IMG/VR virus record: IMGVR_UViG_3300035689_000030
Span: 1 to 44,855 of that record
DNA length: 44,855 nucleotides
Reading direction: 5' to 3' (one strand)
DNA from: a virus
The notes beneath the pieces were generated by a model. That model did not search any database and was not told where the DNA came from. It saw only the letters and a list, made by a program, of their open reading frames with translations. Shown piece by piece: positions 4,248-32,002 of the stretch. The position numbers and the translations under genes are program-made. Position 1 is the stretch's first letter. Each line of letters opens with the position of its first letter.

Positions 4248-4262
4248 TGGTTTTTAATCCTC

Positions 4263-7187: not shown

Positions 7188-7463
7188 TTAAGTATTTAGT
7201 TTGTTCTCCAGAGCCTCTATTCTTGCTTTCAGGTCTTGGTTTTCAGTATCAAGTTGTTTCACAGCATTAATCAAATACCAAGTTAAATTAGAAGTATCAA
7301 CACTATAAACACCAGTACTTTCTTGCTTAACAATTTCTGGTAGTACTTCCGATGCTTCTTGAGCAATTAAACCAATTTGTACTCCTTCTTTATTAATTGC
7401 AGTGTGCTCTGGAAGTTCAGTGATTTCTTCTGGTTTGCGGTATTCATTCAAGAGTTTCAACAT
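7188..7463 (-). CDS. Orphan S74 chaperone-domain fragment
   Basis: A 91-aa product that is only the C-terminal two-thirds of an S74 intramolecular chaperone domain: GLIAQEASEVLPEIV (31-45), a strand pair, WYLINAVKQLD (62-72) and a long coiled coil to the end. The catalytic SDxRxK segment that starts a complete domain, present in three neighbours, is absent. It begins inside the last 20 bases of the 157-aa gene, in another frame, with no strong ribosome binding site. It could be a broken end of a lost fibre or a trans-acting trimerisation aid for the nearby 1285-aa fibre, which lacks its own S74. Confidence 0.72.
   Translation of the reverse strand: MLKLLNEYRKPEEITELPEHTAINKEGVQIGLIAQEASEVLPEIVKQESTGVYSVDTSNLTWYLINAVKQLDTENQDLKARIEALENKLNT
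7193..7200 (-). promoter_or_regulatory. Late-promoter-like ACTAAATA
   Basis: ACTAAATA overlapping the last codons of the S74 fragment, 24 bases upstream of the first glycosyltransferase; a possible promoter of the modification operon. Confidence 0.4.
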
Positions 7464-7941: not shown

Positions 7942-7949
7942 TATTTATT
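7942..7949 (-). promoter_or_regulatory. Late promoter AATAAATA
   Basis: AATAAATA in the gap between the 1285-aa fibre and the 157-aa gene, on the minus strand. Confidence 0.55.
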
Positions 7950-7958
7950 CAGACAAAT

Positions 7959-10900
7959 TTATAAATTATATCCAGCAGAAATAGCTGCAACTGTCCAGTT
8001 TCCTGAACCGCAATTGACAGTTAACGTATTTGATCCAGATTGTCCAAAAGTTACAAAATCAGTATCGCCAGAAATAAATGTGCTTCCTGGTGTATTATTT
8101 CCAGTAATATAAAACTGAACTCGATAAATTGCAGAATCACCAGATGTTCCATCAGAGGTATTTCTACTAGCTAAAACTAACATTGTTGCTCCACCGTTAC
8201 TCTGATTTACTGACAATCCAGTATCGATAACAGTGTTACCAGAACTAGATGCAACTTCTCTTAATTGAGCTGTGTATGCTGCACCACCAGCTCTTACTAC
8301 ACCACTAAGTGTTATGGATCCAGCGACCTGCAACTTATAAATAGTTGGATTTGTAAGACCTATACCAACATTACCACTACTAGTACCATAAATCCAGTTC
8401 ACACCACCAGCACCAATCGCTAACTGACAGCTACCAGTTGCTGATGGAACTTGTGCATTGTTTCCAAGAGCAATATTATTAGAACCAGTGGTAACAGAGC
8501 ATCCTGCATAATGACCTAAGAATGTGTTGCAAGAACCAAAAGTATTAAGGCATCCAGCATTCGCTCCTATAAAGTTATTGTTGGATCCTGTGGTGTTACA
8601 ACGTCCTGCAAGTGATCCTATAAAGTTGTTGTTGTTTCCGGTAGTATTTTTTTGCCCCGCATAACGACCCATAAAGATATTGCAACTTCCAAAAGTATTA
8701 AAAGCTCCAGCACACTGTCCTATGAAGTTATTGTTGGATCCTGTGGTGTTTTTACCACCCGCATACCAACCAAAAAAGTTGTTACAAGAACCAGTAGTAT
8801 TGCAATAACCGGCAGCAAATCCAATAAAGTTATTGGCAGATCCAGTTGTATTAAAAGAACCTGCACGACATCCAAAGAAATTATTACAATTTCCAGTGGT
8901 GTTATAGTAACCAGCATAAAATCCAAAAAAGTTATTGTGACATCCAAAAGTATTAGAAAATCCAGCATTATTGCCTATAAAGTTATTGTTGGATCCAGTA
9001 GTGTTACATAGTCCAGCATTAATACCAAAGAAGTTATTATAACAACCAAAAGTATTCGAATATCCAGCACACTGTCCTATAAAGACGTTGCTGTTTCCTG
9101 TGGTGTTACAGATACCAGCACATAAACCGAAGAAGTTATTATTACTTCCTGTGGTATTACGATATCCAGCAGCACACCCTATGAAGTTGTTGAAACTACC
9201 AAAGGTATTAAACTCTCCTGCTTCACGACCAATAAAGTTATTGGAATTTCCTGTGGTATTGCAGCATCCAGCAAGATATCCAAAGAAGTTATTAGCACTA
9301 CCAGTAGTGTTAGCAAATCCAGCACATCTTCCTATAAAGTTATTGTCTACTCCTGTGGTATTACTATACCCTCCAGCATATCCAAAGAAGTTGTTATTAG
9401 ATCCAGTTGTATTACGAAATCCTGTGTCTTGTCCAAAGAAATTATTGCAACTTCCTGTGGTGCTGCAACGTCCCGCATTAACTCCAAAATAGTTATTACG
9501 AGATCCTGTGGTATTAAGACATCCAGCATCACGACCAATAAAGTTATTGAAGGATCCAGTGTCGTTGCATCTTCCTGCTTTATATCCACCAAAGAAGTTA
9601 TGACATCCTGTAGTATTGCAATATCCTGCACTGGCACCTAAAAATGTATTGTAAGATCCAAAGGTATTAAATTGCCCTGTAAGTTGACCTATGAAAACAT
9701 TAAATCCACCGGTGGTATTACATCTTCCAGCAGAGCGACCAAAAAATACGTTATAGCAACCAGTAGTATTTTTTTGCCCAGCATAAGGACCCATAAAGAT
9801 ATTACAACTTCCAGTGGTGTTACAACTTCCTGCTTGATTACCTACAAAAACATTACTACTTCCAGTGGTGTTGGTGCATCCAGCATTATATCCACCGAAG
9901 AAATTATGATTTCCAGTGGTATTTGAAAATCCAGCAGCACGACCTATAAAGTTATTATTGGTTCCAATTGTATTATTCTGCCCTGCATAAGGTCCAATAA
10001 AATTATTTCTACTTCCAGTGGTGTTACATAATCCTACATTAATACCAAAGAAATTATTTTGATTTCCAAAAGTATTAGAATATCCAGCACAGAAACCTAT
10101 AAAGTTATTGTTGGATCCTGTGGTATTAGAAAGACCAGCATTTTGTCCAAAGAAGTTATTAAAAGATCCAGAAATATTATAAACACCTGTACTATTTCCT
10201 ACAAAGAAATTATGAGATCCAAATGTATTGCAACGACCAGTGGCACGACCAATAAACGTATTATTACTTCCAGTTGTATTTGCTTGACCTGCAAGAGATC
10301 CAATGAAAACATTACGAGTTCCTGTTGTATTGCACTGCCCAACACAGTCACCAATAAAGTTATTATGACATCCAAAAGTATTCGAAAATCCAGCACATAA
10401 TCCAATAAAGTTGTTGTTGGATCCTGTGGTGTTATATCTTCCAGCATTACGACCAATAAAATTATTATTCTGTCCAATAGTGTTGCAGTATCCTGCCTCA
10501 CGCCCTATGAAGTTATTGTTGGATCCTGTGGTGTTGTATCTTCCAGCATTACGACCAAAGAAGTTATTATAACAACCAGTAGTATTATACTGCCCCGCAA
10601 AGACACCAAAGAAGTTATTATAAGCACCGAAAGTATTAGAAAATCCTGCACTATTTCCTATGAAGTTGTTGTGGTTTCCTGTGGCGTTACAATGTCCAGC
10701 AGATCTTCCAATAAAATTATTAGAACTACCAGTGGTATTATTACGCCCTGCATTATATCCACCAAAGAAGTTATGACATCCAGTGGTGTTACAGCGTCCA
10801 GCAAGAAATCCAAAGAAATTGTTATAAGAACCAATAGTATTAATACATCCTGATTGAGTTCCAATAAAATTATTATGATTTCCAGTAGTATTATTGATTC

Positions 10901-11816
10901 CAGCACACTGTCCAAAGAAGTTATTATAGCTTCCAGTAGTATTAGAAAATCCAGATTGCCTACCTAAGAAGTTGTTGTTGTTTCCTGTAGTGTTAGAACA
11001 TCCTGCTTGAATACCAAAGAAGTTATTATAGCAACCAAAGGTATTATTGCGCCCAGCACAGTTGCCTATAAAGTTATTGTTGGATCCTGTGGTATTGCAA
11101 AGTCCAGAAGAATTGCCAAAGAAGTTATTATGATTTCCATTGGTGTTATTATATCCAGCACATAATCCTATAAAGGTATTATTGTTTCCTGTGGTATTAT
11201 TAAATCCTGCTCGGGAACCTAAGAAGTTATTGCAACTTCCAGTGGTGTTTAAACGTCCAGCACCACATCCAAAGAAGTTATTATAACTTCCAATAGTATT
11301 ATAACCTCCTGCAGCATTACCAAAGAAGTTATTATTACTTCCAGTGGTGCTGCACCATCCAGCATAATAACCAAAGAAGTTATTGCAACAACCAAAAGTA
11401 TTAGAACGTCCAGCAGCATATCCAATGAAGTTATTATGACATCCAGTAGTATTACTTCTACCAGCACCAACACCAGCAAAGAAGTTATCCGTACCACCAC
11501 TTAAACTACCACCAGTTGTTGTATCACCAATTCTGATATTGGCAGTAGAACCAAAAGATACTTGAGTGAATGTAGCAACACCAGTGATATTCAGGTCAGT
11601 GAAAGTATTAGGTCCAATTGAAATCGAACTTTCAATGGTTGCTGCAGTAACGGCATCTAATGAAGCAATGTTCTGTAACTGCCTTGCACTTGAAACAATC
11701 TGAGTTGAACCAATACTTAACGAATTTGCAGTTACAATACCTGCAGTGTTAATATTTTCTACAACTAGATTTGCGCCTGTTTCAATACCAGCAGCGTTAA
11801 CCTTCGTGAATGCCAT
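7959..11816 (-). CDS. Giant repeat fibre 5 (1285 aa), non-S74 C-terminus
   Basis: Virion fibre-like protein. Residues 1-109 form an N-terminal module homologous to that of the 1640-aa fibre (shared SIGSTQ, RQLQNI, ITGVATFTQVSFGSTANI). About 59 copies of the 17-aa repeat follow (about 110-1107). The tail of about 178 aa has no S74 domain. It first carries a linker nearly identical in DNA to that of the 1632-aa fibre (NNAQVPSATGSCQLAIGAGG), then a beta-rich domain I cannot place (IYRVQFYITGNNTPGS ... CGSGNWTVAA). Glycine/asparagine-rich with no signal peptide, as for phage fibres. Probably a trimeric shaft with a C-terminal tip (inference). The start lacks a Shine-Dalgarno and follows a TATAAATA box by 14 bases. 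Confidence 0.88.
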   Translation of the reverse strand: MAFTKVNAAGIETGANLVVENINTAGIVTANSLSIGSTQIVSSARQLQNIASLDAVTAATIESSISIGPNTFTDLNITGVATFTQVSFGSTANIRIGDTTTGGSLSGGTDNFFAGVGAGRSNTTGCHNNFIGYAAGRSNTFGCCNNFFGYYAGWCSTTGSNNNFFGNAAGGYNTIGSYNNFFGCGAGRLNTTGSCNNFLGSRAGFNNTTGNNNTFIGLCAGYNNTNGNHNNFFGNSSGLCNTTGSNNNFIGNCAGRNNTFGCYNNFFGIQAGCSNTTGNNNNFLGRQSGFSNTTGSYNNFFGQCAGINNTTGNHNNFIGTQSGCINTIGSYNNFFGFLAGRCNTTGCHNFFGGYNAGRNNTTGSSNNFIGRSAGHCNATGNHNNFIGNSAGFSNTFGAYNNFFGVFAGQYNTTGCYNNFFGRNAGRYNTTGSNNNFIGREAGYCNTIGQNNNFIGRNAGRYNTTGSNNNFIGLCAGFSNTFGCHNNFIGDCVGQCNTTGTRNVFIGSLAGQANTTGSNNTFIGRATGRCNTFGSHNFFVGNSTGVYNISGSFNNFFGQNAGLSNTTGSNNNFIGFCAGYSNTFGNQNNFFGINVGLCNTTGSRNNFIGPYAGQNNTIGTNNNFIGRAAGFSNTTGNHNFFGGYNAGCTNTTGSSNVFVGNQAGSCNTTGSCNIFMGPYAGQKNTTGCYNVFFGRSAGRCNTTGGFNVFIGQLTGQFNTFGSYNTFLGASAGYCNTTGCHNFFGGYKAGRCNDTGSFNNFIGRDAGCLNTTGSRNNYFGVNAGRCSTTGSCNNFFGQDTGFRNTTGSNNNFFGYAGGYSNTTGVDNNFIGRCAGFANTTGSANNFFGYLAGCCNTTGNSNNFIGREAGEFNTFGSFNNFIGCAAGYRNTTGSNNNFFGLCAGICNTTGNSNVFIGQCAGYSNTFGCYNNFFGINAGLCNTTGSNNNFIGNNAGFSNTFGCHNNFFGFYAGYYNTTGNCNNFFGCRAGSFNTTGSANNFIGFAAGYCNTTGSCNNFFGWYAGGKNTTGSNNNFIGQCAGAFNTFGSCNIFMGRYAGQKNTTGNNNNFIGSLAGRCNTTGSNNNFIGANAGCLNTFGSCNTFLGHYAGCSVTTGSNNIALGNNAQVPSATGSCQLAIGAGGVNWIYGTSSGNVGIGLTNPTIYKLQVAGSITLSGVVRAGGAAYTAQLREVASSSGNTVIDTGLSVNQSNGGATMLVLASRNTSDGTSGDSAIYRVQFYITGNNTPGSTFISGDTDFVTFGQSGSNTLTVNCGSGNWTVAAISAGYNL
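8344..8537 (-). repeat. 194-bp block shared with the 1632-aa fibre gene
   Basis: By direct comparison this block and 23071-23264 have equal length and differ at four positions. It covers the last repeat unit and the VPSATGSCQLAIG linker, after which the two proteins become unrelated. Marks a module-exchange boundary. Confidence 0.85.
8496..11489 (-). repeat. 51-bp tandem repeat array, about 59 units
   Basis: Tandem in-frame 51-bp units encoding the 17-residue repeat near NTTGxxNNFFGxxAGxx. Paired positions after NTTG, after FFG and after AG vary; the rest is nearly fixed. Count estimated from array length divided by 51. Confidence 0.92.
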
Positions 11817-11830
11817 TATGGTTTTTTATG

Positions 11831-11838
11831 TATTTATA
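11831..11838 (-). promoter_or_regulatory. Late promoter TATAAATA with embedded stop codon
   Basis: Perfect T4-type TATAAATA. The TAA stop of the 1637-aa fibre lies inside the box. ATG of the next fibre is 14 bases downstream, after a TAAAAAACCATA leader shared with other fibre genes. Confidence 0.65.
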
Positions 11839-14800
11839 GACCTGCGGCATCTAAACGCTTAAGAACTTCTTTTAATGTATTTCTGAGTTCTGTGTTTTCT
11901 TGGTCGAGTTCTTGAATCGCTTTAATCAGAATAGGAATAAAGTTGGTCTTATAAATTCCTAAACTATCAGGTGCATTGTCGTCTACTAATCTGAGGTAAT
12001 CTGCATTGTATTCTTCTTGGACTGCTTGGACTTCTTGTGCAATTAAACCTGCTTCTTCCTTGCCTTGTGGAGGCAACTTCTTCTTCTCTTCGTCACGGAA
12101 GTCCCACTGGAATTTAACTGGTCTGAGTTTTCCTAAGAAATCTTTTCCTTGTGGTAGGTTTTGAATATTGATTTTATCTCTACCGTCAGAAGTGTTACCC
12201 CAAGCACTAAATGCACCACTGTAGCAGGCAGCAGTCGCATTACCAGAAGAGATGACGACTTGGTTGCTGTTGGTTGCTGATGGAACGTTATATGGTCCAA
12301 GAACAACGTTACAAGAACCAATAGTATTATTGCATCCTGCATATGCACCAATAAAAACATTTTTTATTCCAGTGGTATTTGCTCTTCCAGCACCAATACC
12401 CATAAAACTATTGTAACATCCAGTGCTATTGCAAAGTCCTGCATTAACACCAAAGAATTGATTATATCTTCCACTGGTATTATTCAATCCAGCAACTGTC
12501 CCCATAAACTGGTTGTGTCTACCAATAGTATTAGAATATCCAGCACAGGTTCCTATAAAGGTGTTGTCGCCTCCTGTAGTGTTGGAATATCCAGCAGTGA
12601 CACCAAAGAAATTGTTGTTGGTTCCTGTGGTGTTTGTTTGTCCAGCACGAAGACCAAAGAAAATATTATTAGATCCAGTTGTATTGAAATATCCAGCGTA
12701 TTTTCCAAAGAAAGTATTATAGCAACCAGAAGTATTCGCTAATCCTGCAGCACGACCAAAGAAATTGTTATAAGAACCTGTTGTGTTACATCTACCTGCA
12801 CTAGATCCAAAGAAGTTATTAAAGGAACCAGTGGTATTACACCATCCAGCAAGAGCCCCAAAGAAATTATTAAGATCACCAAAAGTATTAGAATATCCAG
12901 CACACTGTCCTATAAAGGTGTTGTTGGATCCTGTGGTGTTGCAACGTCCCGAAAGAAGACCAAAGAAGTTGTTATTAGATCCAGTCGTATTAGAACGTCC
13001 AACATCTACTCCAAAGAAGTTATTATAATTACCAAAAGTATTACTACAACCTGTAGCATCACCAATGAAGTTATTACCATTTCCTGTGGTGTTGCCTTGC
13101 CCTGCTCTCCATCCAATAAAGTTGTTATGAAAACCAAAAGTATTGTTACGTCCTGCACAGGCACCAATAAAGGTATTATTTCCTCCAGTGGTATTAGCGC
13201 ATCCTGCACATAATCCGAAGAAAGTATTGCAACTTCCTGTAGTATTACAATATCCTGCAGAAGTGCCAAGGAAATTATTATGAGACCCAGTAGTGTTAAA
13301 TCTTCCCGCCTCGGCACCAGAGAAAAAGTTTTGCTCTCCAGTTGTATTTGATGTTCCCGTATTGCGTCCAATAAAAGTATTAAAAAATCCAGTGGTGTTA
13401 CATTTACCTGCACTTCTTCCAATAAAAGTATTGTAACAACCAAAAGTATTAGCAAATCCAGCACACTGTCCTATAAAGGTATTGTCTGCTCCTGTGGTGT
13501 TGGAGTATCCAGCATTTAATCCAAAGAAGTTATTATGACTTCCTGTGGTATTGGAATTTCCAGCAGCATTGCCAAAAAAGTTATTATAGCATCCAGTAGT
13601 ATTGTAACGTCCAGAAACATTGCCAAAGAAGTTATTAAAGCAACCAGTAATGTTGCAACGTCCTGTAAAACGACCAAAGAAGTTATTATAACCACCAAAA
13701 GTATTAGAATATCCAGCACATAGTCCTATAAAGGTGTTGTGGCATCCAGTGGTGTTGCTATTTCCTGCACGGGACCCAAAGAAGTTATTATAATTACCAA
13801 AAGTATTGGAAACTCCCGTATTTGGTCCAATGAAATTATTTCTAGACCCAGTAGTATTGCATAAACCTGCATTAAAACCAAAGAAGTTATTATAAGCACC
13901 AAAGGTATTGGAATATCCAGCACAGAATCCTATAAAGTTATTGTGGTTTCCAGTGGTGTTGCTTCTTCCTGCATAATAACCAAAGAAGTTATTATTGGTA
14001 CCAGTAGTATTAGAAAGTCCAGAAAATTGCCCAAAGAAATTGTTGCGAATTCCAGTTGTGTTACAGCGACCTGCAGAAGGTCCAAAGAAATTATTAAAGC
14101 AACCAAAAGTATTAGAAAGACCAGCAAGGGTTCCTATAAAGTTATTATCAGTTCCTGTAGTATTGGAATATCCAGCACATAGACCTATAAAGTTATTGCA
14201 ATTTCCTGCGGTGTTACTGAAACCTGCAAATTTTCCAAAGAAATTATTATAACCACCAAAAGTATTAGAATATCCAGCACAGAATCCTATAAAGGTATTG
14301 TGATTTCCAGTAGTGTTACAGAATCCTACTTGAAGTCCAAAGAAGTTATTATTTTCACCAAAAGTATTAGAATATCCAGCACACTGTCCTATAAAGGTAT
14401 TGTTGGTTCCTGTGGTGTTGCAAGCACCAGCAAGATATCCAAAGAAGTTATTAAAAGATCCAGTAGTATTTCGATATCCAGCAGCATATCCACCAAAAAA
14501 GTTGTTACTTCCAGTAGTGTTTAATTGACCTGCACGAAACCCAATGAAAATATTGCAGTTTCCTGTCGTATTAGCACAACCTGCATAAAATCCAAAGAAG
14601 TTATTATACTTACCAGTGGTGTTGCAGAGACCAGCAATATTTCCAAAGAAGTTGTTGTGAGATCCTGTAGTATTTTTAAATCCTGCCTGAACACCAAAAA
14701 AGGTGTTATCAGTTCCTGTGGTATTGCATTGTCCTGCAGCACGACCAAAGAAATTATTATTATTTCCAGTGGTATTTTCACGTCCCGCAAGATATCCAAA

Positions 14801-16747: not shown

Positions 16748-16760
16748 TTTTGTTTTTTAG

Positions 16761-19700
16761 TTATTTATTCTGGTTCTTAAGGTCATTAAGTTCTTGTCTT
16801 AATGAAGTCACTTCTGCATCAAGTTCTTTGATTGCATTGACGAGCACTGGGATCATATAGTCGTGTGTGATACCAAGATTATCTGGGTCAGAGTTATTGA
16901 CGATAATTGGTTCATCACCCTCTAGAGACATTACTTCTTGTGCTGAGAATCCATATCTCTTTCTTGGATCCTTGAGTTCTCCTGTCTCTTTGTCCTTAAA
17001 GGAGTACTTGATTGGGTTGACTCCTCTTAAGAAATCTCTACCGTATGGTACGTTGCCCCAGACACACTTGTATCTGATATCGGAGGCGACACCCCAAGCA
17101 ATCTGGATACAGGCTGTTGTATGGGATGAGTTACCCATAACAATTTGGTTACCAGTGGTTGTCATATTAATGAGACCACCTGGAGATGATCCAGTTGTTC
17201 CAGAAAAACGACCAATTGCTATATTATTAGATGCTGTAGTATTGTTCTGACCTGCACCATAACCAATAAAAACATTACAGCAACCACCAGTGTTACTAAA
17301 TCCAGCATCACGACCAAAGAATTGGTTATAACAACCAGTGGTGTTATAACGCCCAGCATTACAACCAATAGCATTGTTATGGCATCCAGTAGTATTAGTA
17401 ACTCCTGCCTCTCTACCAAGAAAAACATTCCAACTTCCAATAGTATTGCTAGCTCCTGCTCCAAAACCTATAAAAACATTACAACTTCCTGTGGTATTGA
17501 AGTATCCTGCAGATTCTCCAAAGAAAATATTGTTGTTTCCAGTAGTATTACAAAAACCAGAGGCATTACCAGCAAAAACATTACTATATCCAAAAGTATT
17601 AGAATATCCAACACATCTCCCTATAAAGACATTGTTGGTTCCTGTGGTGTTGGAGTATCCTGTATTAAGTCCAAAGAAGTTGTTGTTGTTTCCTGTGGTG
17701 TTATAACGTCCAGCTTCACGTCCTATAAAGTTATTATTAGATCCTGTAGTATTTTTATATCCAGAAACAGGACCAAAGAAGTTATTACACTGTCCTGTCG
17801 TATTATAATATCCACTTGCACGTCCAAAGAAGTTATTATACTGACCTATTGTATTGCAATATCCAGCACATCCACCTATAAAGTTATTATTGTTTCCTGT
17901 AGTGTTACTGCGACCTGCAAATAACCCAAAGAAGTTATTAAAACATCCAGTGGTGTTGCAGAAACCTGCTTGTGTTCCAATGAAATTATTACAACTACCA
18001 AAAGTATTAAGACATCCTGCTTGTTGACCTATAAAGTTATTAGCAGTTCCAGTTGTATTAGATTGTCCAGCATAAACACCTATAAAATTATTGTTTATAC
18101 CAAAAGTATTAGAATATCCAGCACACGCACCTATAAAGTTATTGTTGTTTCCTGTGGTATTACTTCTACCTGCATAACGACCAAAGAAGTTGTTACTGGA
18201 TCCTGTAGTATTAGAAAATCCTGCTTGTCTTCCGAAGAAGTTATTATATCCACCAAAAGTATTAGAATATCCGGAATCGCAACCAATAAAGGTATTACTA
18301 TTTCCTGTAGTATTACAAATACCAGCATTCAAACCAAAGAAGTTATTAAAGCATCCTGTAGTATTTCTAAATCCTGCTTGTCTTCCAAAGAAATTATTGA
18401 AACCACCAGTAGTATTGAAAAATCCTGCATCACATCCAAAGAAGTTATTATAGTTTCCAGTGGTGTTGCAAAGTCCTGCACCACGTCCAATGAAATTATT
18501 AAAGCAACCAAAAGTATTAGAATATCCAGCGCATAGTCCTATAAAGTTATTGTTGGATCCTGTGGTGTTATATCTTCCTGCAGCATAACCAAAGAAGGTA
18601 TTGTATGATCCTGTGGTATTTTTACATCCAGCAAGTTGTCCAAAGATATTATTATTATTTCCTGTAGTGCTGCAAAGTCCTGCATAACGTCCAAAGATAT
18701 TATTATTACTTCCTGTAGTGTTTGAATATCCTGCATAATAACCAAAGAAATTATTGCAGTTACCAAAAGTGTTAGTATATCCAGCACGTTGTCCTATAAA
18801 GTTATTATTAGATCCTGTAGTATTTCCTTGTCCAGCACGGCAACCAAAGAAGTTATTATTACTTCCAAAGGTATTTGCATAACCAGCAAGAAGACCAATA
18901 AAAGTATTATGATTTCCTGTGGTGTTACAACGTCCAGCATCAACGCCAAAGAAATTATTATAGCAACCAGTAGTATTATCACGCCCAGCACCACACCCAA
19001 AGAAATTATTGTGACATCCTGTGGTGTTAGAAGCACCTGCATAACGACCAAAGAAGTTGTTAAAACAACCTGTGGTGTTACAACGTCCTGCAGAACATCC
19101 TAAAAAGTTATTAAAACAACCAAAAGTATTATAAAGTCCTGCTGCTTGCCCTATAAAAATATTAGAACCGCCAGTAGTATTACAACGTCCGGCACTATTT
19201 CCAATAAAATTATTAGCACCCCCAAAAGTATTAGAATATCCAGCACACTGTCCTATAAAGGTATTGTTGATTCCTGTGGTGTTTAAGTATCCTGCAAAAA
19301 ACCCAAAGAAATTATTGTTAGAACCAAAGGTATTGCAAAAACCTGCATTACGACCTATAAAGTTGTTGTTGTTTCCTGTGGTGTTTAAGTATCCTGCTTG
19401 GCACCCAAAAAAGTTATTATGACTTCCAGTGGTATTATAATATCCAGAATATTTGCCAAAGAAATTATTATAGTTTCCTGTTGTATTACATCTTCCTGCT
19501 TCACGATTGAAGAAATTATTATAACTTCCAATGGTATTTGCATTTCCTGCGTTATAACCTATAAAGTTATTATGTTTTCCAGTTGTATTAGAAAATCCTG
19601 ATGTAGTACCAAAGAAGTTATTAAAGCAACCAAAAGTATTAGAATATCCAGCACACTGTCCTATAAAGGTATTGTTGGATCCAGTGGTGTTGCTTCTACC

Positions 19701-21851: not shown

Positions 21852-21865
21852 TATGGTTTTTTAGT

Positions 21866-21873
21866 TATTTATT
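21866..21873 (-). promoter_or_regulatory. Late promoter AATAAATA with embedded stop codon
   Basis: AATAAATA overlapping the TAA stop of the 89-aa gene, 14 bases before the ATG of the 1696-aa fibre and followed by the shared CTAAAAAACCATA leader. Confidence 0.6.
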
Positions 21874-22138
21874 CGGGCAATCTTGGTGCTTCTTCATTTC
21901 TTTGTGCTGCTGTCTTGACTAAACCTTCTTCATAAGCTGCTAGAACCATATCAGGTTTATTAGTAGCGGTAATAGGTTGGTTGTTTTCTAGTTTAGTTTT
22001 AACATAAAGATCGCAGATTTCATCAATCGCAATTCTTGCTCTATTAGTTGCTGCATTATCAATCCATTCTTGTGGATCAGCAGCAACATATTGAAGTGCT
22101 AGGTCTTCTGCTTCGGTTAAGGTGATCGTATAGTCCAT
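21869..22138 (-). CDS. Small helical fibre-cluster protein
   Basis: An 89-aa acidic protein predicted all-helical: LTEAEDLALQYVAADPQEWI (7-26), then NRARIAIDEICDLYVKTKLE and a polar tail. The DPxxWIDNAxxNRA pattern is one I associate with small proteins beside fibre genes in diverse phages; their role is unknown to me. It lies between two giant fibres with late boxes on either side, so it is probably expressed with virion proteins. A chaperone or connector role is a guess. Confidence 0.72.
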   Translation of the reverse strand: MDYTITLTEAEDLALQYVAADPQEWIDNAATNRARIAIDEICDLYVKTKLENNQPITATNKPDMVLAAYEEGLVKTAAQRNEEAPRLPE

Positions 22139-22154
22139 ATTAAGTCTTTTTGAG

Positions 22155-22162
22155 TATTTATC
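22155..22162 (-). promoter_or_regulatory. Late-promoter-like GATAAATA
   Basis: GATAAATA between the 1632-aa fibre stop and the 89-aa gene start, minus strand. Confidence 0.5.
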
Positions 22163-22163
22163 T

Positions 22164-25100
22164 TTATCCTACAAGATAACCTGAAAAAGTTCCAGTATTA
22201 TCAAGAGCAAATGAAGTCATTGTTGGAAATATTTCTGCTTCAACATAATCATTTGCGGATAAATTTATTAAGCTGGAAGTAACTATAGACTCATAAGCAC
22301 TTATTGTAATGGTAGCATATGTTGTTCCATAAAAACCACTACCATTTTTTTTCAGGGACATTCTCAAATATCCTGCATTTGGTGAAGATCCCATACATGT
22401 AAATTGAAATTGATATGTTCCACTTACAGGAGCAGTGAATTTATTACTAGAATAATTACTACCAATGTCTATAACTTCTGTATCAAAGGAAACGACATTA
22501 TTGACAGATTGAGTAAGAGTTTGTCCGGAACTTTTTGTAGCAATAAATGCTGGTTGATAAGGTAAGGTCAATCTGCCGGAACTATCAAACCTAGCAACTT
22601 CAGCAAAAACTGGTCCTGCTGATTGTGTTTTGAATGCGAGTGCAGTGGTATCATTTCCCGTTCCGACACATTCTATTCCAACGAAAGCAGTATTTCCGTT
22701 TCTAGCATTTCCTAATGCAATACCAGAAAAGGTAGTCGTTGCTGTTGTATTGGTATTTAAAAGTGTAATTGCGTTTGCAGTTTGTGGTGTAGCAGTTGCA
22801 CTATAAGCAGTTGAAGATGAATAATTAATTTGTAATTTTGAGAATGGATTTGTAAGTCCTACACCGACATTACCAGCACCAGTAACCGCAAGCAATGAAT
22901 TTGAACTATGATCTTCTACATAAATTTTATAATTACTGGAATGTCCTTTAATTCTTAATTCGGCATTTGTAGGTGCAATACTTCCTGGAATAATATTATT
23001 AGGACGTTGAATGAATATAACTGGTGCAACCGAAGGAGTTGCTGCAAGATCTACTGCTTCAAGTTTTGATGTTGGATTTGTAAGTCCTACACCAATATTA
23101 CCACTACTAGTACCATAAATCCAGTTCACACCACCAGCACCAATCGCTAACTGACAGCTACCAGTTGCTGATGGAACTTGTGCATTGTTTCCAAGAGCAA
23201 TATTATTAGAACCAGTGGTAACAGAGCATCCTGCATAACGACCTAAGAATGTGTTGCAAGAACCTGTAGTAGTTTTTCCTCCTGCATAACGACCAAAGAA
23301 ATTATTATAACAACCAGTGGTGTTTGCATATCCAGCAATATTTCCAAAGAAGTTGTTGTTGTTTCCTGTGGTGTTGCTAGCACCAGCAAGATATCCAAAG
23401 AAATTGTTATTAGAACCAGTAGTATTTTCTCTTCCAGCATTAAAACCTAAGAAGTTGTTGAAAGTTCCAGTAGTGGTTTTATAACCTCCATAATATCCGA
23501 AGAAATTATTATTGCAACCAGTGGTATTTGCATATCCAGCAAAAGTTCCTAGGAAATTATTACAACCTCCAAAAGTATTACAGTATCCTGCACCTTGTCC
23601 AATAAAGTTGTTGTTGTTTCCTGTAGTATTATATCTTCCTGCAGAAGATCCAAAGAAGTTATTATAAGAACCAGTGGTATTACAAAGTCCAGCACTAACT
23701 CCAATAAAATTATTTCTTACACCAGTAGTATTACAGAATCCTGTACGTAATCCAATAAAGTTGTTATAGTTACCAAAAGTATTAGAATATCCAGCACACT
23801 GTCCTATAAAGGTGTTGTTGTTTCCTGTGGTATTAGAAAATCCTGTACTATTACCGAAGAAGTTATTACAACTTCCAGTGGTATTTTTATAACCACCAAA
23901 CGCACCCATAAAGTTATTATTATTTCCAAAAGTATTACAATAACCGGCATTCACTCCTATGAAATTATTGCAGTTTCCAGTAGTGTTAAATCGACCTGCT
24001 TGACTTGTAAAGAAATTATTAAAATTTCCTGTGGTATTGGAGCATCCTGCGGCATTACCAAAGAAGTTATTATCTCCACCAAAAGTATTAGAAAATCCAG
24101 TACATCTTCCTATAAAGTTGTTATGATCTCCTGTAGTATTACAGTGTCCTGCTTGGAAACCAAAAAAGTTGTTATTAGTTCCTGTAGTGTTATAACGTCC
24201 TGCACTACGTCCCATAAAGTTATTGTTGACTCCTGTGGTGTTAGAGAACCCAGCACACATACCAAAGAAGTTATTGCAACTTCCTGTAGTATTACAATAT
24301 CCTGCACACTGTCCTATAAAGTTATTGTTGTTTCCTGTGGTGTTTCTATTTCCAGCATAACGACCAAGGAAATTATTATGACTTCCAAAAGTATTACAAT
24401 ATCCTCCAATTTGCCCTATGAAAATATTATAACTTCCAGTGCTGTTAAAACGCCCTGCTCTATCACCAAAGAAAGTATTATTATTTCCAGTTGTGTTACC
24501 CGATCCGGCATAACTACCAACGAAGAAATTACTACTACCAAAAGTATTAGAAGTTCCAGATTTATTTCCTATAAAGTTGTTGTTGGATCCTGTGGTATTG
24601 GAGAAACCAGCACGGCAACCAAAAAAGTTATTATTACATCCAGTAGTGTTACAGTATCCTGCAAGATTACCAAAGAAATTATTATAAGCACCAAAAGTAT
24701 TAGAAAGTCCAGCACATCTTCCTATAAAGTTGTTGTTGATTCCTGTGGTGTTACAGTATCCTGCAAGAGCACCAAAGAAATTATTATACTGACCGGTGGT
24801 ATTAAAATATCCAGCATTGTTTCCTATAAAAGTATTGTGGCTTCCTGTGGTGTTGCTTCTACCTGCTTGATTTCCAAAGAAGTTATTAAAACAAGCAGTG
24901 GTGTTATTTCTACCTGCTTGAAATCCAAAGAAGTTATTGCAACTACCAAAAGTATTATATCTTCCAGCAGCATTACCAATAAAATTATTGGCATTTCCTG
25001 TAGCATTACATTGACCAGTAATACGCCCAAAGAAATTATTGTAACAACCAGTGGTATTATAACGCCCTGCATTAATACCAAAGAAGTTATTATACCCTCC

Positions 25101-27062
25101 AGTCGTCGTAGAACTACCAGCACCAGCACCAGCAAAGAAGTTATTCGAACCAGTGGTTACAACAGCACCAGTCGTACTGTCACCTAACTTAATGTTACTA
25201 TCATTAAATCCAATGGTACCACCGACTTGCAATTTAACCAGTGGATTTGTGGTTCCTACACCGACATTACCATTAAAATAAGCACCACCACTAACTTGAA
25301 GTGGTTGTGATGAGGTTCCTGTTGCTGTTGTCGTATTAACTAAAACTTCACCCGTTGATGTAATTGCTACTCTATTTCCCGTATTTGTTACATCTCGAAT
25401 TACTAATTGAGTAGAACCTTGTATTCCAATTCTATAATGCATTAAAGAATTTTGGAATCTTAATGCAGCAACATTACTATCTCCAGTTACAACCCAAGCA
25501 GAATTTTCTCCAGAATTTCTATAAGAATAAAATGAATTTGAAGTTGATGAATTGATTTGTAATTGTGCTGTTGGATTTGTGGTCCCTATGCCAACCGAAC
25601 CACTGAAATAAGCACCACCAGTGACTTGAAGATCTTGATTTGCAGTTCCAGTTGTTGCACCAGAACCAATCTTAATTGTACCACCAGTAATTTTAAGTCT
25701 TTCATTTGCTGCTAATGTACCACCAGTGAAGAATGAAAGTGTCTTACCAATTCCAGCAACACCAATACTTAAACTTCCATCACTGGTATATAAGTATCCG
25801 TCATTGGCACCATTGATTGTCCAAGTTGACGTTGAGAATTCACTGTTGTTAATGCCTAAGTCTATAAAGTTCGTTGTATCACTACCATTATCTGCAGTTA
25901 CAACAAAGTCCGCAGAAGCAGCATTTCCAGTATTTGAGTTACGAAGATTAACCTGAGTATAATTATTCGCAAACGCAGTGAAGTCAGCAACACAGGAAGT
26001 CAGTCCGGAAAGTGCAGGAGTACCAGTTGGAGAGACTGTTAAATTATAAGGTGGATTTGTGATTCCAATGCCAAGATTTCCAGAAATATAAGAACCACCA
26101 GCAACTTGAAGTCTTTGATTTGCAGTTCCTGATGAGGTTGCAGTACCGACTAAGATACTTGAAACTACAATTGAATCATTAGTTGTTAATCCTACATTAC
26201 CAGTTCTTCCATAGAATCCAGTCACTGCACTGGACGTAGCACCAGCAAAACCAATATGACGAACCTGAATGATTGTACCACTTCCAGGTGCTTCAACGAA
26301 CGTCAGAACGTTTCCAATGACGCTATAAGCTCTAACAGTCGTTGCATCATCTGGATACTGAACAACACCATTGATTGTAACTAATACGTTCTGATTGTTT
26401 GGTGGTGTTTTTGAAAGTGTGAAGTTTGTTTGAGATCCATTGCCAACGAAACTATCAACAGTATTATCACTGGTATCAAACGTTGGGTAATTGTTTGCAA
26501 TGACATTACCCCAGAAGGCATCAGTGTCTACAGGAGGAACTGAAAATACAATGGTACTATCAGTTTCAATACCAAAACCATTTGAAGGTGTGGAACTGTC
26601 ACTTGGTTGTTGGAGAACACCATTAATGGAGATTTGTAATTGTGCTCCTCTGGTGACTTGTGCTTTGGTTCCGTTATTATAAGTTGCTTTGAACTTTGTA
26701 TTAATACCATCAAAACCAACAACTAATGTGTGAGTTGTTCCAGTTCCTAATGCTGTAAGAGTAATATTTGAATTATTATTTGCGTTTGCAAGTGATGTGG
26801 CAAGACGAATTGTATTTTGATCTACTTTTATGATATAATAGTAAGTACCAGACGTTAAACCACCAATTGCAGTTCCAGTAGTCGAATATAAAACTCTCTG
26901 ACCAGTAATGAAGCGATGACCAGTCAGAGAAATGGAGGAATCAGATACTGATACAGTTGCGGATGATGCACCATCAAACGTTTGTGTGAACGTTGAAATG
27001 TCATCAAGTATTCTGAAACTATTATCTCCGCTTACCGGAAAGTTGCCGATATAAGAAGCCAT
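22164..27062 (-). CDS. Giant repeat fibre 2 (1632 aa) with C1q-like domain
   Basis: The most modular of the five. Residues 1-130 hold an N-terminal module (MASYIGNFPVSGDNSFRILD..., GTYYYIIKVDQNTIRLA); about 130-290 hold repeated fibre domains (FVGNGSQTNFTLSKTPPNN, LVTINGVVQ). About 290-640 hold several copies of a G(I/V)GxTNPxxxLQVxGGxY-type linker. About 38 repeats of 17 aa follow (about 637-1279). The tail starts with the linker shared with the 1285-aa fibre and ends in a C1q-like jelly-roll (about 1504-1632): SSGQTLTQSVNNVVSFDTEV, then NKFTAPVSGTYQFQFTC and LKKNGSG. C1q/TNF-like domains are trimeric and often bind ligands, so this may be a receptor-binding tip. No S74 domain. Confidence 0.9.
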   Translation of the reverse strand: MASYIGNFPVSGDNSFRILDDISTFTQTFDGASSATVSVSDSSISLTGHRFITGQRVLYSTTGTAIGGLTSGTYYYIIKVDQNTIRLATSLANANNNSNITLTALGTGTTHTLVVGFDGINTKFKATYNNGTKAQVTRGAQLQISINGVLQQPSDSSTPSNGFGIETDSTIVFSVPPVDTDAFWGNVIANNYPTFDTSDNTVDSFVGNGSQTNFTLSKTPPNNQNVLVTINGVVQYPDDATTVRAYSVIGNVLTFVEAPGSGTIIQVRHIGFAGATSSAVTGFYGRTGNVGLTTNDSIVVSSILVGTATSSGTANQRLQVAGGSYISGNLGIGITNPPYNLTVSPTGTPALSGLTSCVADFTAFANNYTQVNLRNSNTGNAASADFVVTADNGSDTTNFIDLGINNSEFSTSTWTINGANDGYLYTSDGSLSIGVAGIGKTLSFFTGGTLAANERLKITGGTIKIGSGATTGTANQDLQVTGGAYFSGSVGIGTTNPTAQLQINSSTSNSFYSYRNSGENSAWVVTGDSNVAALRFQNSLMHYRIGIQGSTQLVIRDVTNTGNRVAITSTGEVLVNTTTATGTSSQPLQVSGGAYFNGNVGVGTTNPLVKLQVGGTIGFNDSNIKLGDSTTGAVVTTGSNNFFAGAGAGSSTTTGGYNNFFGINAGRYNTTGCYNNFFGRITGQCNATGNANNFIGNAAGRYNTFGSCNNFFGFQAGRNNTTACFNNFFGNQAGRSNTTGSHNTFIGNNAGYFNTTGQYNNFFGALAGYCNTTGINNNFIGRCAGLSNTFGAYNNFFGNLAGYCNTTGCNNNFFGCRAGFSNTTGSNNNFIGNKSGTSNTFGSSNFFVGSYAGSGNTTGNNNTFFGDRAGRFNSTGSYNIFIGQIGGYCNTFGSHNNFLGRYAGNRNTTGNNNNFIGQCAGYCNTTGSCNNFFGMCAGFSNTTGVNNNFMGRSAGRYNTTGTNNNFFGFQAGHCNTTGDHNNFIGRCTGFSNTFGGDNNFFGNAAGCSNTTGNFNNFFTSQAGRFNTTGNCNNFIGVNAGYCNTFGNNNNFMGAFGGYKNTTGSCNNFFGNSTGFSNTTGNNNTFIGQCAGYSNTFGNYNNFIGLRTGFCNTTGVRNNFIGVSAGLCNTTGSYNNFFGSSAGRYNTTGNNNNFIGQGAGYCNTFGGCNNFLGTFAGYANTTGCNNNFFGYYGGYKTTTGTFNNFLGFNAGRENTTGSNNNFFGYLAGASNTTGNNNNFFGNIAGYANTTGCYNNFFGRYAGGKTTTGSCNTFLGRYAGCSVTTGSNNIALGNNAQVPSATGSCQLAIGAGGVNWIYGTSSGNIGVGLTNPTSKLEAVDLAATPSVAPVIFIQRPNNIIPGSIAPTNAELRIKGHSSNYKIYVEDHSSNSLLAVTGAGNVGVGLTNPFSKLQINYSSSTAYSATATPQTANAITLLNTNTTATTTFSGIALGNARNGNTAFVGIECVGTGNDTTALAFKTQSAGPVFAEVARFDSSGRLTLPYQPAFIATKSSGQTLTQSVNNVVSFDTEVIDIGSNYSSNKFTAPVSGTYQFQFTCMGSSPNAGYLRMSLKKNGSGFYGTTYATITISAYESIVTSSLINLSANDYVEAEIFPTMTSFALDNTGTFSGYLVG
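23071..23264 (-). repeat. 194-bp block shared with the 1285-aa fibre gene
   Basis: Partner of 8344-8537, four differences. Lies at the junction between repeat array and C-terminal domains. Confidence 0.85.
23223..25150 (-). repeat. 51-bp tandem repeat array, about 38 units
   Basis: The shortest of the five arrays; same 17-aa repeat. Contains a 70-bp stretch (24578-24647) identical to 30367-30436 in the 1640-aa fibre gene. Confidence 0.92.
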
Positions 27063-27076
27063 TATGGTTTTTTAGA

Positions 27077-27084
27077 TATTTATA
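27077..27084 (-). promoter_or_regulatory. Late promoter TATAAATA with embedded stop codon
   Basis: TATAAATA containing the TAA stop of the 1640-aa fibre; the 1632-aa fibre ATG is 14 bases downstream with the shared CTAAAAAACCATA leader. Confidence 0.65.
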
Positions 27085-30000
27085 GACCTGCAGCGTCTAA
27101 ACGAGCACGGATTTCATTGTTTTCATTTTGAAGAGTTTGTACTGTTTCTTTGAGTTCTGTGTTTTCTTGATCGAGTTCTTTGATTGCGTTGATCATAATA
27201 GGAATTAAGTTTGTTGCACCTAATGTGTACTGGTTTGGATCATTGGTATCAACAAGATTTGTATATGGAGCATTGTACTGCTCTACTGTTTCTAGGACTT
27301 CTTGTGCAATAAAACCAATTGCTTCCTTACCTTTATCGGCATCAGTGTGTCTATGATTCCACTTAAACTTACGTGGTTTGACACCTTTTAAGAAATCACG
27401 ACCAAGTGATAATGGTTGAATATCAGTTTTATCTCTTTGGTCGGAAGTGAATGTCCAAGAAGTTGCGGCACCTTGGAAACGTGCTGTGTTTGTTCCGTTC
27501 CAAAGAGTAACTTCATTAGATACTGATGAACTTGAAGTTTGACCACTAGAACCAATTACAACATTATTGGAACCTGTGACATTATTGCAACCCGCATAAC
27601 GACCTAAGAATGTGTTGTTAGAACCACTGGTAGTTTTACCTCCTGCATACCAACCCATAAAAGTGTTAGCTGCTCCAGTGGAGTTGCAAAGTCCTGCATT
27701 AATACCAACAAAAGTACCTAAACATGCTGTAGTGTTATTACGTCCTGCATTAGTGCCAAAGAAACTGTTGTAACATCCTACAGTATTAGCACATCCTGTG
27801 CGGAAACCGAAGAAGGTATTATAAGAACCAGTGGTATTATTAAATCCAGCACATCTTCCTATAAAGTTATTGTCATTTCCTGTGGTGTTGAAACGTCCAG
27901 CAGCACATCCAAGAAAAACGTTATATTGTCCAGTGGTGTTTGCACGTCCTGCATTATATCCACCGAAGAAATTATGACCTCCTGTGGTATTAGAAAGTCC
28001 TGCATAACGACCAAAGAAATTATTCATTTGTCCGGTCGTATTAGAACAACCAGCATTCTGTCCTATAAAGTTGTTGAAGCTTCCTGTGGTGTTTTTGCAT
28101 CCTGCATAACGACCAAAAAAGTTATTATGACTTCCTGTGGTGTTGCAAAGACCTGCTTTATATCCACCAAAGAAATTAAATGATCCTGTGGTATTAAAAC
28201 GTCCTGGAGTATATCCAATAAAAATATTGGCACATCCTGTAGTATTAGAACGTCCTGCATAAACACCAAAGAAGTTATTATAACATCCTGTGGTATTTGC
28301 ACATCCTGCAAGACTTCCAAAGAAATTATTAAGTCTACCAGTTGTATTAGAATATCCAGCACACAGTCCTATAAAGGTATTGTTGTCTCCTGTGGTGTTG
28401 CAACGTCCTGCACGAAAACCAAAGAAGTTATTAAAAGATCCAGTAGTATTAGCGCGTCCAGCGTCATTGCCCAAGAAATTATTATTACATCCTGTAGAAT
28501 TTACACATCCTGCTTCTGCACCAAAAAAGTTATTTTGATTTCCTGTAGTATTAAGTAATCCAGCACTACGTCCAAAGAAAACATTGTATCCACCAGAAGT
28601 ATTGCAACATCCTGCTTGATTTCCTACAAAGATATTATTACTTCCTGTAGTATTATAACGACCAGTACACTTACCTATAAAAACGTTAAAACTTCCAATT
28701 GTAGTATTGCATCCAGAATCATTACCAATAAAAATATTCTGAGTTCCAGTGGTATTGGCGAAACCAGCATTTTGTCCAAAGAAGTTGTTGTGAGATCCTG
28801 TAGTGTTACAGAAACCAGAACGATTGCCAAAGAAATTATTATGATTTCCAGTGGTATTAAAACGTCCCGCTTCAAGACCAAAGAAGTTATTGTATGTGCC
28901 CGTAGTATTGCAGCATCCTGCTTCTTGTCCTAAGAACGTATTAAAATTACCAGTAGTATTACTATATCCAGCAAGATTGCCAACAAAGAAGTTACTGCAA
29001 CCAAAAGTATTACAATATCCAGTACATCTTCCAATAAATGTATTTTGATTTCCTGTAGTATTGCAACGCCCAGCATTGAACCCAAAGAAATTATTATAAC
29101 AACCAGTAGTATTTTCTCTTCCTGCTGTATTTCCTATAAAGTTATTGTGACATCCTCCAGTATTGCACTGACCTGCATTGAGACCAATGAAATTATTTCT
29201 TGAACCGAATGTGTTATTTTGCCCAGCATAAGCACCAATGAAGTTATTGAATATACCCGTAGTATTACAACGTCCAGCATATGATCCAAAGAAATTATTA
29301 AAACATCCAAAAGTATTAGAATATCCAGCACACTGTCCTATAAAGTTATTATTGTTTCCTGTGGTGTTAGAACGTCCCGCCTGACATCCAAAAAAGTTAT
29401 TATTATTACCAAAAGTATTGCAATATCCAGCACACTGTCCTATAAAGTTGTTGTTGTTTCCTGTGGTGTTTGAATTTCCTGCACTAATACCAAAGAAGTT
29501 ATTGCAAGAACCAGTCGTGTTACATATTCCTGCACTATTACCAATAAAGTTATTATTATTTCCTGTGGTGTTACAACGTCCAGCATCAACGCCAAAGAAA
29601 TTATTATAGCAACCAGTAGTATTATCACGCCCTGCACGTAACCCAAAGAAGTTATTAAAGCTTCCAGTGGTATTAGAATATCCAGCACACTGACCTATAA
29701 AGTTGTTGTTGGATCCTGTGGTATTATATCTTCCCGCATAACGACCAAAGAAATTATTATTAGATCCTGTGGTGTTATATCTTCCAGCACGGTTTCCAAA
29801 GAAATTGTTATTAGATCCTGTAGTATTACAGCATCCGGCAACAAGACCAAAGAAGTTATTATAACATCCAGTAGTATTTGCACATCCTGCTCCGCCTCCA
29901 AAGAAATTATTATATCTTCCAAAAGTGTTGCAAAGACCAGCATTAGTCCCTATGAAGTTATTATCTTGTCCAGTGGTGTTTTCAAATCCAGCGCAAACAC

Positions 30001-32002
30001 CTATAAAGATATTTTGAACTCCAATAGTGTTTTTATATCCAGCACACAGTCCTATGAAATTATTGCAACTTCCTGTGGTGTTGAGTGCTCCTGCATTACG
30101 ACCAAAAAAGTTATTATAAGAACCAGTAGTGTTTTTGCAACCTGCATAAAAACCAATAAAAGTGTTAAAACTTCCTGTAGTATTATAAAAACCTGCGCCA
30201 CGACCAAAGAAGTTATTATTATATCCTGTTGTATTACAAAGTCCAGCATTAGTGCCAATGAAGTTATTATTAATTCCAGTAGTATTGAAACGACCTGCAT
30301 TACGTCCAAAGAAATTATTATAAGCACCAAAAGTATTAGCAAATCCAGCACACTGTCCTATAAAAGTGTTGTTGGATCCTGTGGTATTGGAGAAACCAGC
30401 ACGGCAACCAAAAAAGTTATTATTACATCCAGTAGTATTACAAGCTCCTGCACAGAATCCAAGGAAGTTATTATAAGCACCAAAAGTATTAGCAAATCCA
30501 GCACACTGTCCTATGAAGTTATTATTGGTTCCTGTGGTGTTAGAACGTCCTGCCTGTGAACCAAAAAAGTTATTATAACAACCAGTAGTATTGCAACCTG
30601 CCTGAAGACCTAAGAAGTTATTATTACTTCCTGTTGTTGCTAACCTTCCTGCATAACGACCGATAAAAATATTATTGATTCCTGTAGTATTACAAAGTCC
30701 TGCGTGAAGTCCAAAGAAGTTATTATAACCACCAAAAGTATTACAAAGTCCAGCACACTGTCCTATAAAGGTGTTGTTGGATCCTGTGGTGTTGCAGAAA
30801 CCAGCAGAACAACCAAAAAAGTTATTGTTGGATCCTGTGGTATTAGAATATCCAGCACACAGTCCTATGAAATTATTGCAACTTCCTGTGGTGTTACAGT
30901 ATCCAGAATAACGACCAAAGAAGTTATTGTTAGAACCTGTGGTATTCGATTGTCCTGCAAGAATACCAAAAAAGTTATTGTATGAACCAAAAGTATTGGA
31001 ATATCCTGCTTGGTTTCCTATAAAGTTGTTGTTGGTTCCTGTGGTGTTGCAATATCCTGTATTATTACCAAAGAAGTTATTGTGGGATCCTGTGGTATTA
31101 TAACGCCCTGCCCAAAAACCAATAAAAGTATTACTACATCCCGTGGTATTGCAAATACCAGCACCACATCCAAAGAAATTATTGTGACATCCTGTGGTAT
31201 TAGAAAATCCTGCATAACGACCAAAGAAGTTGTTAAAACAACCTGTGGTGTTACAACGTCCTGCAGAACATCCTAAAAAGTTATTAAAACAACCAAAAGT
31301 ATTATAACGTCCTGCTGATTGCCCTATAAAAATATTAGAACTGCCAGTAGTATTACAACTACCAGCATTAAGTCCAAAGAAATTATTAGCTTGCCCAAAA
31401 GTATTAGAAAATCCAGCACACTGACCTATAAAGTTATTGTTGACTCCTGTGGTGTTGCTTTGTCCTGCACTACATCCAAAGAAGTTATTGTTTGATCCTG
31501 TGGTATTAGAACATCCAGCACACAGTCCTATAAAGTTGTTGAAACTTCCTGTGGTGTTTGTGTTTCCTGCACGACGACCAAAAAAGTTATTGTTACAACC
31601 AGTGGTATTATAAAGACCTGCATTTGGACCGATAAAAATATTAGCATTTGCAGTAGTCGTAGAACTACCAGCACCAACACCAGCAAAGAAATTATTCTGA
31701 CCACCACTTAAACTGCTACCAGTGGTTGTATCTCCAATTCTAATATTTGCAGTAGAACCAAAAGATACTTGAGTGAATGTAGCAACACCAGTGATATTCA
31801 GATCTGCAAACGTATTAGGTCCAGAAGAAATTGCAGTTTCAATTGTCGCTGCTGTTGTAGCGTCTAGCGACGTAATGTTCTGAAGTTGTCTTTCAGAACT
31901 GATAACTTGTGTTGAACCAATGGATAAGGTTCTTACACTCGTAACACCAACACTAAAATTATCGTCTTGAACGTTATCTCCGCTAATTCTAGTTAATGGC
32001 AT
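27080..32002 (-). CDS. Giant repeat fibre 1 (1640 aa) with S74 domain
   Basis: N-terminal module of about 100 aa, homologous to the 1285-aa fibre (SIGSTQVISSERQLQNI, ITGVATFTQVSFGSTANI). About 81 repeats of 17 aa follow (about 101-1473), one of them one residue short (AGCNTTG near 30590). The C-terminal S74 chaperone runs from about 1517: FTSDQRDKTDI (serine about 1520), GVKPRKFKWNH, AIGFIAQEVLETV, IPIMINAIKELDQE and a long coiled coil ending RLDAAGL, the same ending as the 1637-aa fibre. GGAG lies upstream of the ATG, inside the end of the 108-aa gene, whose TGA precedes the start (TGATATG), so translation is likely coupled. Confidence 0.92.
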   Translation of the reverse strand: MPLTRISGDNVQDDNFSVGVTSVRTLSIGSTQVISSERQLQNITSLDATTAATIETAISSGPNTFADLNITGVATFTQVSFGSTANIRIGDTTTGSSLSGGQNNFFAGVGAGSSTTTANANIFIGPNAGLYNTTGCNNNFFGRRAGNTNTTGSFNNFIGLCAGCSNTTGSNNNFFGCSAGQSNTTGVNNNFIGQCAGFSNTFGQANNFFGLNAGSCNTTGSSNIFIGQSAGRYNTFGCFNNFLGCSAGRCNTTGCFNNFFGRYAGFSNTTGCHNNFFGCGAGICNTTGCSNTFIGFWAGRYNTTGSHNNFFGNNTGYCNTTGTNNNFIGNQAGYSNTFGSYNNFFGILAGQSNTTGSNNNFFGRYSGYCNTTGSCNNFIGLCAGYSNTTGSNNNFFGCSAGFCNTTGSNNTFIGQCAGLCNTFGGYNNFFGLHAGLCNTTGINNIFIGRYAGRLATTGSNNNFLGLQAGCNTTGCYNNFFGSQAGRSNTTGTNNNFIGQCAGFANTFGAYNNFLGFCAGACNTTGCNNNFFGCRAGFSNTTGSNNTFIGQCAGFANTFGAYNNFFGRNAGRFNTTGINNNFIGTNAGLCNTTGYNNNFFGRGAGFYNTTGSFNTFIGFYAGCKNTTGSYNNFFGRNAGALNTTGSCNNFIGLCAGYKNTIGVQNIFIGVCAGFENTTGQDNNFIGTNAGLCNTFGRYNNFFGGGAGCANTTGCYNNFFGLVAGCCNTTGSNNNFFGNRAGRYNTTGSNNNFFGRYAGRYNTTGSNNNFIGQCAGYSNTTGSFNNFFGLRAGRDNTTGCYNNFFGVDAGRCNTTGNNNNFIGNSAGICNTTGSCNNFFGISAGNSNTTGNNNNFIGQCAGYCNTFGNNNNFFGCQAGRSNTTGNNNNFIGQCAGYSNTFGCFNNFFGSYAGRCNTTGIFNNFIGAYAGQNNTFGSRNNFIGLNAGQCNTGGCHNNFIGNTAGRENTTGCYNNFFGFNAGRCNTTGNQNTFIGRCTGYCNTFGCSNFFVGNLAGYSNTTGNFNTFLGQEAGCCNTTGTYNNFFGLEAGRFNTTGNHNNFFGNRSGFCNTTGSHNNFFGQNAGFANTTGTQNIFIGNDSGCNTTIGSFNVFIGKCTGRYNTTGSNNIFVGNQAGCCNTSGGYNVFFGRSAGLLNTTGNQNNFFGAEAGCVNSTGCNNNFLGNDAGRANTTGSFNNFFGFRAGRCNTTGDNNTFIGLCAGYSNTTGRLNNFFGSLAGCANTTGCYNNFFGVYAGRSNTTGCANIFIGYTPGRFNTTGSFNFFGGYKAGLCNTTGSHNNFFGRYAGCKNTTGSFNNFIGQNAGCSNTTGQMNNFFGRYAGLSNTTGGHNFFGGYNAGRANTTGQYNVFLGCAAGRFNTTGNDNNFIGRCAGFNNTTGSYNTFFGFRTGCANTVGCYNSFFGTNAGRNNTTACLGTFVGINAGLCNSTGAANTFMGWYAGGKTTSGSNNTFLGRYAGCNNVTGSNNVVIGSSGQTSSSSVSNEVTLWNGTNTARFQGAATSWTFTSDQRDKTDIQPLSLGRDFLKGVKPRKFKWNHRHTDADKGKEAIGFIAQEVLETVEQYNAPYTNLVDTNDPNQYTLGATNLIPIMINAIKELDQENTELKETVQTLQNENNEIRARLDAAGL
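27584..31702 (-). repeat. 51-bp tandem repeat array, about 81 units
   Basis: 17-aa repeat as in sister genes. Holds the only length exception I noticed in any array (a 48-bp unit near 30590). Confidence 0.92.
31159..31359 (-). repeat. 201-bp block shared with the 1696-aa fibre gene
   Basis: Partner of 18986-19186, eight differences by direct reading. Confidence 0.82.

Follow-up and report, generated by a model that had tools for sequence, protein, structure and literature searches.

A cluster of five probable tail-fibre genes with long 17-residue repeat arrays, predicted to form YadA-like beta-roll shafts, in a T4-like cyanophage

In the heads of trimeric autotransporters such as YadA and BpaC, a left-handed parallel beta-roll is built from repeats of 14-15 residues with fixed Asn and Gly, each repeat forming one two-strand coil, and the BpaC head counts 42 such coils. 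The rise of the beta-roll has been measured at 4.8 Å per turn (PMC9543794). On the phage side, fibres and spikes of the S74 (endosialidase) type carry a C-terminal S74 domain with the motif SDxRxK. Phages with several receptor-binding proteins per virion, and with exchange of modules among them, are also described: most Ackermannviridae have up to four tailspikes, and phage phiKp24 has 14 (PMC11414711). These tailspikes are joined by conserved XD domains and lack repeat arrays of the kind discussed here. The 17-residue repeat itself occurs in the marine virus AG-345-L05 (MH319754; 40 units), in Prochlorococcus phage P-SSM2 (gene PSSM2_298; 6 units) and in Pelagibacter phage HTVC112P (gp48; 19 units), each with one array gene in the stretches read and with arrays shorter and less regular than those described here. 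The parts are known; what is new is the presence of five fibres at once, with arrays that are not homogenised and with cysteine-rich shaft surfaces.

The window, i.e., the whole stretch of DNA that was analysed, is the IMG/VR virus record IMGVR_UViG_3300035689_000030 (44,855 bases). It is part of the genome of a T4-like cyanophage, a virus of picocyanobacteria, as indicated by psbD at the window end, by nrdC, and by a gene order that matches Prochlorococcus phage P-SSM2 and Synechococcus phage S-SRM01. A search against Rfam gave no match. The five fibre genes, A to E, are all on the minus strand, and their ORFs take up 53% of the window, the arrays 39%:

7959-11816, minus strand: fibre gene A, 1285 aa; N-terminal module also in E; unique non-S74 tip
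8445-11504, minus strand: array of A, 60 units of 17 aa
11834-16747, minus strand: fibre gene B, 1637 aa
12278-16459, minus strand: array of B, 82 units
16761-21851, minus strand: fibre gene C, 1696 aa
17193-21374, minus strand: array of C, 82 units
21869-22138, minus strand: 89-aa gene between C and D, 94% identity to S-SRM01 gp010
22164-27062, minus strand: fibre gene D, 1632 aa
23172-25160, minus strand: array of D, 39 units
27080-32002, minus strand: fibre gene E, 1640 aa
27533-31711, minus strand: array of E, 82 units, with a 16-aa unit at 30593-30640

The ORFs and the scoring of units confirm what had been read from the sequence alone, namely that five array-bearing genes lie within 7959-32002. 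They do share one minus-strand run, but they are not strictly adjacent, since the 89-aa gene stands between C and D. Sulfotransferase-, methyltransferase- and glycosyltransferase-like genes adjoin the cluster at 3300-7168, and their products could modify the fibres or the glycans of the host surface. The genes at 32338-37365 and 38273-40192 encode large repeat-rich, cysteine-free proteins with repeats of about 25 and 41 residues (TYTTGNLGTANVVTG type), and the first of them matches a baseplate wedge PHROG. The lengths of B, C, D and E and of the 32338-37365 protein all fall within 1632-1696 aa, an agreement noted post hoc.

Position-specific scoring of the five ORFs called 345 units, and a control with the same residues shuffled gave about 2. 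The counts per gene (60, 82, 82, 39 and 82 for A to E, the last being 81 plus the 16-residue unit) are within one unit of the 59, 81, 81, 38 and 81 first reported. Spacing is exactly 17 aa throughout, with the 16-residue unit as the sole exception. Positions N1, T2, G4, N7, F9, G11 and G15 are nearly fixed, while positions 5, 6, 12, 13, 16 and 17 vary freely. The earlier figure of about 340 copies of one repeat holds as a count, but the units are diverse: 327 of the 334 internal 17-mers are distinct. Units within an array are as similar as units of different arrays.

The silent sites of the units are strongly diverged. At the fixed positions, units differ from one another by 1.7% at codon positions 1 and 2 and by 49% at position 3, so the core is under strong purifying selection; at the variable positions, the corresponding values are 66% and 53%. 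Neighbouring units are coupled as well. When a unit has F10, the next has T3 in 149 of 154 cases; among the residues tabulated, F3 is preceded by I10 of the previous unit in 64 of 65; and after I10, the next unit has T or F at position 3. That residue 10 predicts residue 3 of the next unit is expected if both share one core as packing partners. A search of PDB sequences with the array profile gave no match, and a single array block compared with cellular genome contigs found no relative.

For the fold, a 14-unit block of E was modelled as a monomer, using an ungapped alignment with 34 aligned paralogous unit blocks. The best of five models has pLDDT 88 and pTM 0.84 (the five span pLDDT 59-88), and shows two short strands per 17 residues, in most units at positions 2-3 and 8-10; by this prediction, a unit is a single beta-roll coil of two strands, as in YadA and BpaC. 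In a Foldseek search of the PDB, the only match below E 0.001 was the trimeric BpaC head (7o23), at a low TM of 0.23, and in BFVD the model matched viral S74/YadA-like proteins. The comparison with trimeric-autotransporter heads made in the sequence-only reading agrees with the predicted fold, BpaC being the best match of solved structure. The fixed Asn and Gly are common to both, but the phage unit has 17 residues, the arrays have 39-82 units, and, set against those of YadA and BpaC, the units are not homogenised. Unlike YadA-type heads, the phage proteins have no autotransporter domain, and the Pfam YadA head model PF05658 did not match the arrays even at E 10; membership of YadA_head by sequence was rejected on this search. 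The C-terminal membrane anchor of YadA-like autotransporters is also absent. At 4.8 Å per turn (PMC9543794), 82, 60 and 39 coils correspond to about 39, 29 and 19 nm, and the description of these fibres as giant was not sustained: the predicted shafts, of roughly 19-39 nm, are long for a beta-roll, not giant.

At the C-termini, the following features were located:

12011-12190, minus strand: S74 intramolecular chaperone domain of B (PF13884, E 1.9e-10; motif SDGRDK)
16929-17084, minus strand: S74 domain of C (PF13884, E 5.3e-6; motif SDIRYK)
22170-22499, minus strand: C1q-like C-terminal domain of D (phmmer against PDB, C1q-related factor, E 0.0013)
27284-27445, minus strand: S74 domain of E (PF13884, E 9.1e-10; motif SDQRDK)
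7188-7463, minus strand: orphan C-terminal half of an S74 domain, 91 aa, without a shaft of its own

B, C and E score above the curated Pfam cut-off for PF13884, and A and D have no match at that cut-off. The motif SDxRxK, with its Ser and Lys, is present in B, C and E, as in S74 fibres and spikes, and in an alignment of 37 sequences that were themselves selected for SDxRxK its S, D and K are invariant. By sequence, a profile of the S74 ends matched chaperone domains in the PDB, among them that of a distal subunit of a long tail fibre. The monomer model of the E C-terminus (pLDDT 89) ends in a long helix, and in Foldseek chaperone domains ranked at the top, weakly (best E 0.028). Together, PF13884, SDxRxK, the 14-unit model and Foldseek support the proposal of long beta-roll shafts with S74 ends. 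Where the locus departs from the S74 phage fibres and spikes is in A and D, which lack S74, and in the shaft, here a very long 17-residue array. For the tips of A and D, homologues were too few for structure prediction. The orphan half domain matches the C-terminal end of the E relative in G009, a 236-kb related genome, at 86% identity, and is probably a remnant of another fibre.

How these proteins were put together is suggested by their relatives. The cultured phage S-SRM01, with a complete genome, has the same locus, sharing with the window the anchors of C and D, the 89-aa gene and a relative of the C1q-like tip of D (33% identity). Its fibre genes are short and lack the 17-residue unit, whereas those of the window have long arrays. 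The N-terminus of C is 73% identical to the array-less gp007 (132 aa), and the N-terminal ~330-332 aa of D are 66% identical to gp001. Since S-SRM01 has these anchors in the corresponding position but no array, the shaft is best seen as an optional cassette. Within the cluster, A and E have their N-terminal module in common (65%), B, C and D the segment before the array, and A and D the array end. In G009, the N-terminus of E is 94-95% identical, the shaft only ~65%. C and E share a non-collinear block (92% at best). The arrays of B, C and E are non-collinear yet have 82 units each, an observation made post hoc; in one relative, E counts 87. A collinear whole-gene duplication as the explanation was rejected, as there is no unit-by-unit diagonal, and either chance or selection for length may account for the equal numbers.

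ATAAATA, the core of T4-type late promoters in T4-like phages, was found at these sites:

11831-11837, minus strand: before A, beginning 21 nt upstream
16762-16768, minus strand: before B, beginning 21 nt upstream
21866-21872, minus strand: before C, beginning 21 nt upstream
22155-22161, minus strand: before the 89-aa gene, beginning 23 nt upstream
27077-27083, minus strand: before D, beginning 21 nt upstream
7942-7948, 37386-37392, 42843-42849 and 43908-43914, minus strand: further copies directly before starts

The total number of ATAAATA is not above chance; its placement is (P 1.5e-14), with 11 of 13 minus-strand copies no more than 60 nt upstream of a start. The copies ahead of A to D overlap the 3' end of the upstream gene and give these four the core expected of late structural genes in T4-like cyanophages (Kyanoviridae); E has no ATAAATA directly upstream.

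The cluster also recurs in other contigs, which likely come from independent samples. Contig 3300034019_001476 is 99.97% identical across all 44,855 bases, all five arrays included. In contig 3300035665_000074, B, C and D are identical, A has one codon changed, and E has an in-frame insertion of five units, a clean duplication that includes a second 16-residue unit. Contig 3300042527_001212 carries the same insertion in E, and from unit 58 onward its E sequence is wholly different; this switch, near the contig end, may be due to recombination or to a chimeric contig end.

Taken as a whole, these data make it probable that the five genes are paralogues coding for modular tail fibres of a T4-like cyanomyovirus, with YadA-like beta-roll shafts and presumably trimeric; we infer the trimer, the cleavage, the placement in the virion and the recognition of the host. 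Each protein would begin with an N-terminal anchor module and end in a C-terminal tip, with a rigid shaft between the two. In the shaft, where three chains presumably intertwine, every 17-residue unit would be one two-strand coil. The S74 chaperone of B, C and E would nucleate the trimer and then presumably be released by cleavage behind the Ser of SDxRxK, while D would bear a C1q-like head and A a different, non-S74 domain. The shaft cassette would be optional, its length changing by tandem duplication and its segments being swapped by recombination, and the turn residues would form a highly varied surface meeting the host together with the tip.

Is the cluster mainly a reservoir, with one or two fibres assembled at a time and the rest serving as recombination partners for the exchange of shafts and tips? 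The non-collinear block of C and E, the replacement of distal E, the orphan S74 half and the equal identity of units within and between arrays would all suit this reading. It is nevertheless the unlikelier one, given that the five ORFs are intact and under strong purifying selection, that four of them have promoter cores, and that A to D are unchanged or nearly so in the related contigs; the switch in E could, after all, be a chimera. That the five proteins are other virion appendages, for instance capsid or neck fibres, appears improbable. The repeat also occurs in PHROGs 23837 and 6002, both classed as virion structural protein in the head and packaging category, but the locus is syntenic with the tail-fibre region of P-SSM2 and with S-SRM01 genes annotated as tail fibre, baseplate wedge and endosialidase, and similar S74 ends occur in tail-fibre families. 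Finally, that an assembly artefact multiplied repeats or genes is hardly credible: tandem repeats are difficult for short reads and two array genes of G009 are frameshifted, but the units are almost all distinct, the longest exact repeat within the cluster is below 150 bp, and the arrays, which the sequence-only reading feared might be inflated, recur in 3300034019_001476 and, four of them near-unchanged, in 3300035665_000074. As for G009, the array genes of the stretch L034 (G009:C1:166001-186000) are, like other genes of that record, split by frameshifts; phase variation was rejected as the cause, and sequencing errors are the probable one, given that the breaks extend to genes without arrays.

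With five tail fibres as the preferred reading, how unusual is their number? Relatives of the arrays are encoded in 559 or more stretches of IMG/VR. Among 77 loci surveyed, counting array ORFs within the fetched stretches only, ORFs with at least 10 units numbered one in 57 loci, two in 13, three in 1, four in 1 and none in 5; in the four-ORF locus, at least one gene is split by a frameshift. Five were seen only in the window group (the window, 3300034019_001476 and 3300035665_000074). Five is the most seen for this repeat; other phages have more receptor-binding proteins (PMC11414711).

Another question is posed by cysteine. Of the cysteines in the five proteins, 300 lie in the 344 array units scored, nearly all of them at variable turn positions, and 12 lie elsewhere. 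Relatives are bimodal, with arrays either rich in cysteine or nearly free of it, and unit type explains this split only partly. The late-promoter core precedes 24 of 44 cysteine-rich arrays (some six of these 44 belong to the window group) and 1 of 31 cysteine-poor ones. Direct stacking of cysteines as ladders was rejected, as no enrichment was found and position 17 is depleted. Given the 300 against 12, the turn positions, the two cysteine-free repeat-rich neighbours and the bimodal relatives, we offer as a speculation, and a rather doubtful one, that the shaft cysteines are functional: the fibres would fold in the reduced state within the cell and, after release into oxic water, link chains or coils by disulfides or take up metal, making the shaft harder or readying it for adsorption. 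Their enrichment in any case raises the question of fibre chemistry after lysis.

The coil is common in IMG/VR, in hundreds of stretches, yet Pfam and NCBIfam yielded no model of it. The locus indicates that a very small coil, itself evolvable, is enough for a phage to build fibre shafts that are long and diverse, and that the shaft cassette may be there or missing between the same anchors and tips. A fixed core combined with a surface that is almost never repeated runs contrary to the usual homogenisation of tandem repeats, and these arrays are a testable system for the evolution of fibre length and surface diversity against picocyanobacterial hosts.
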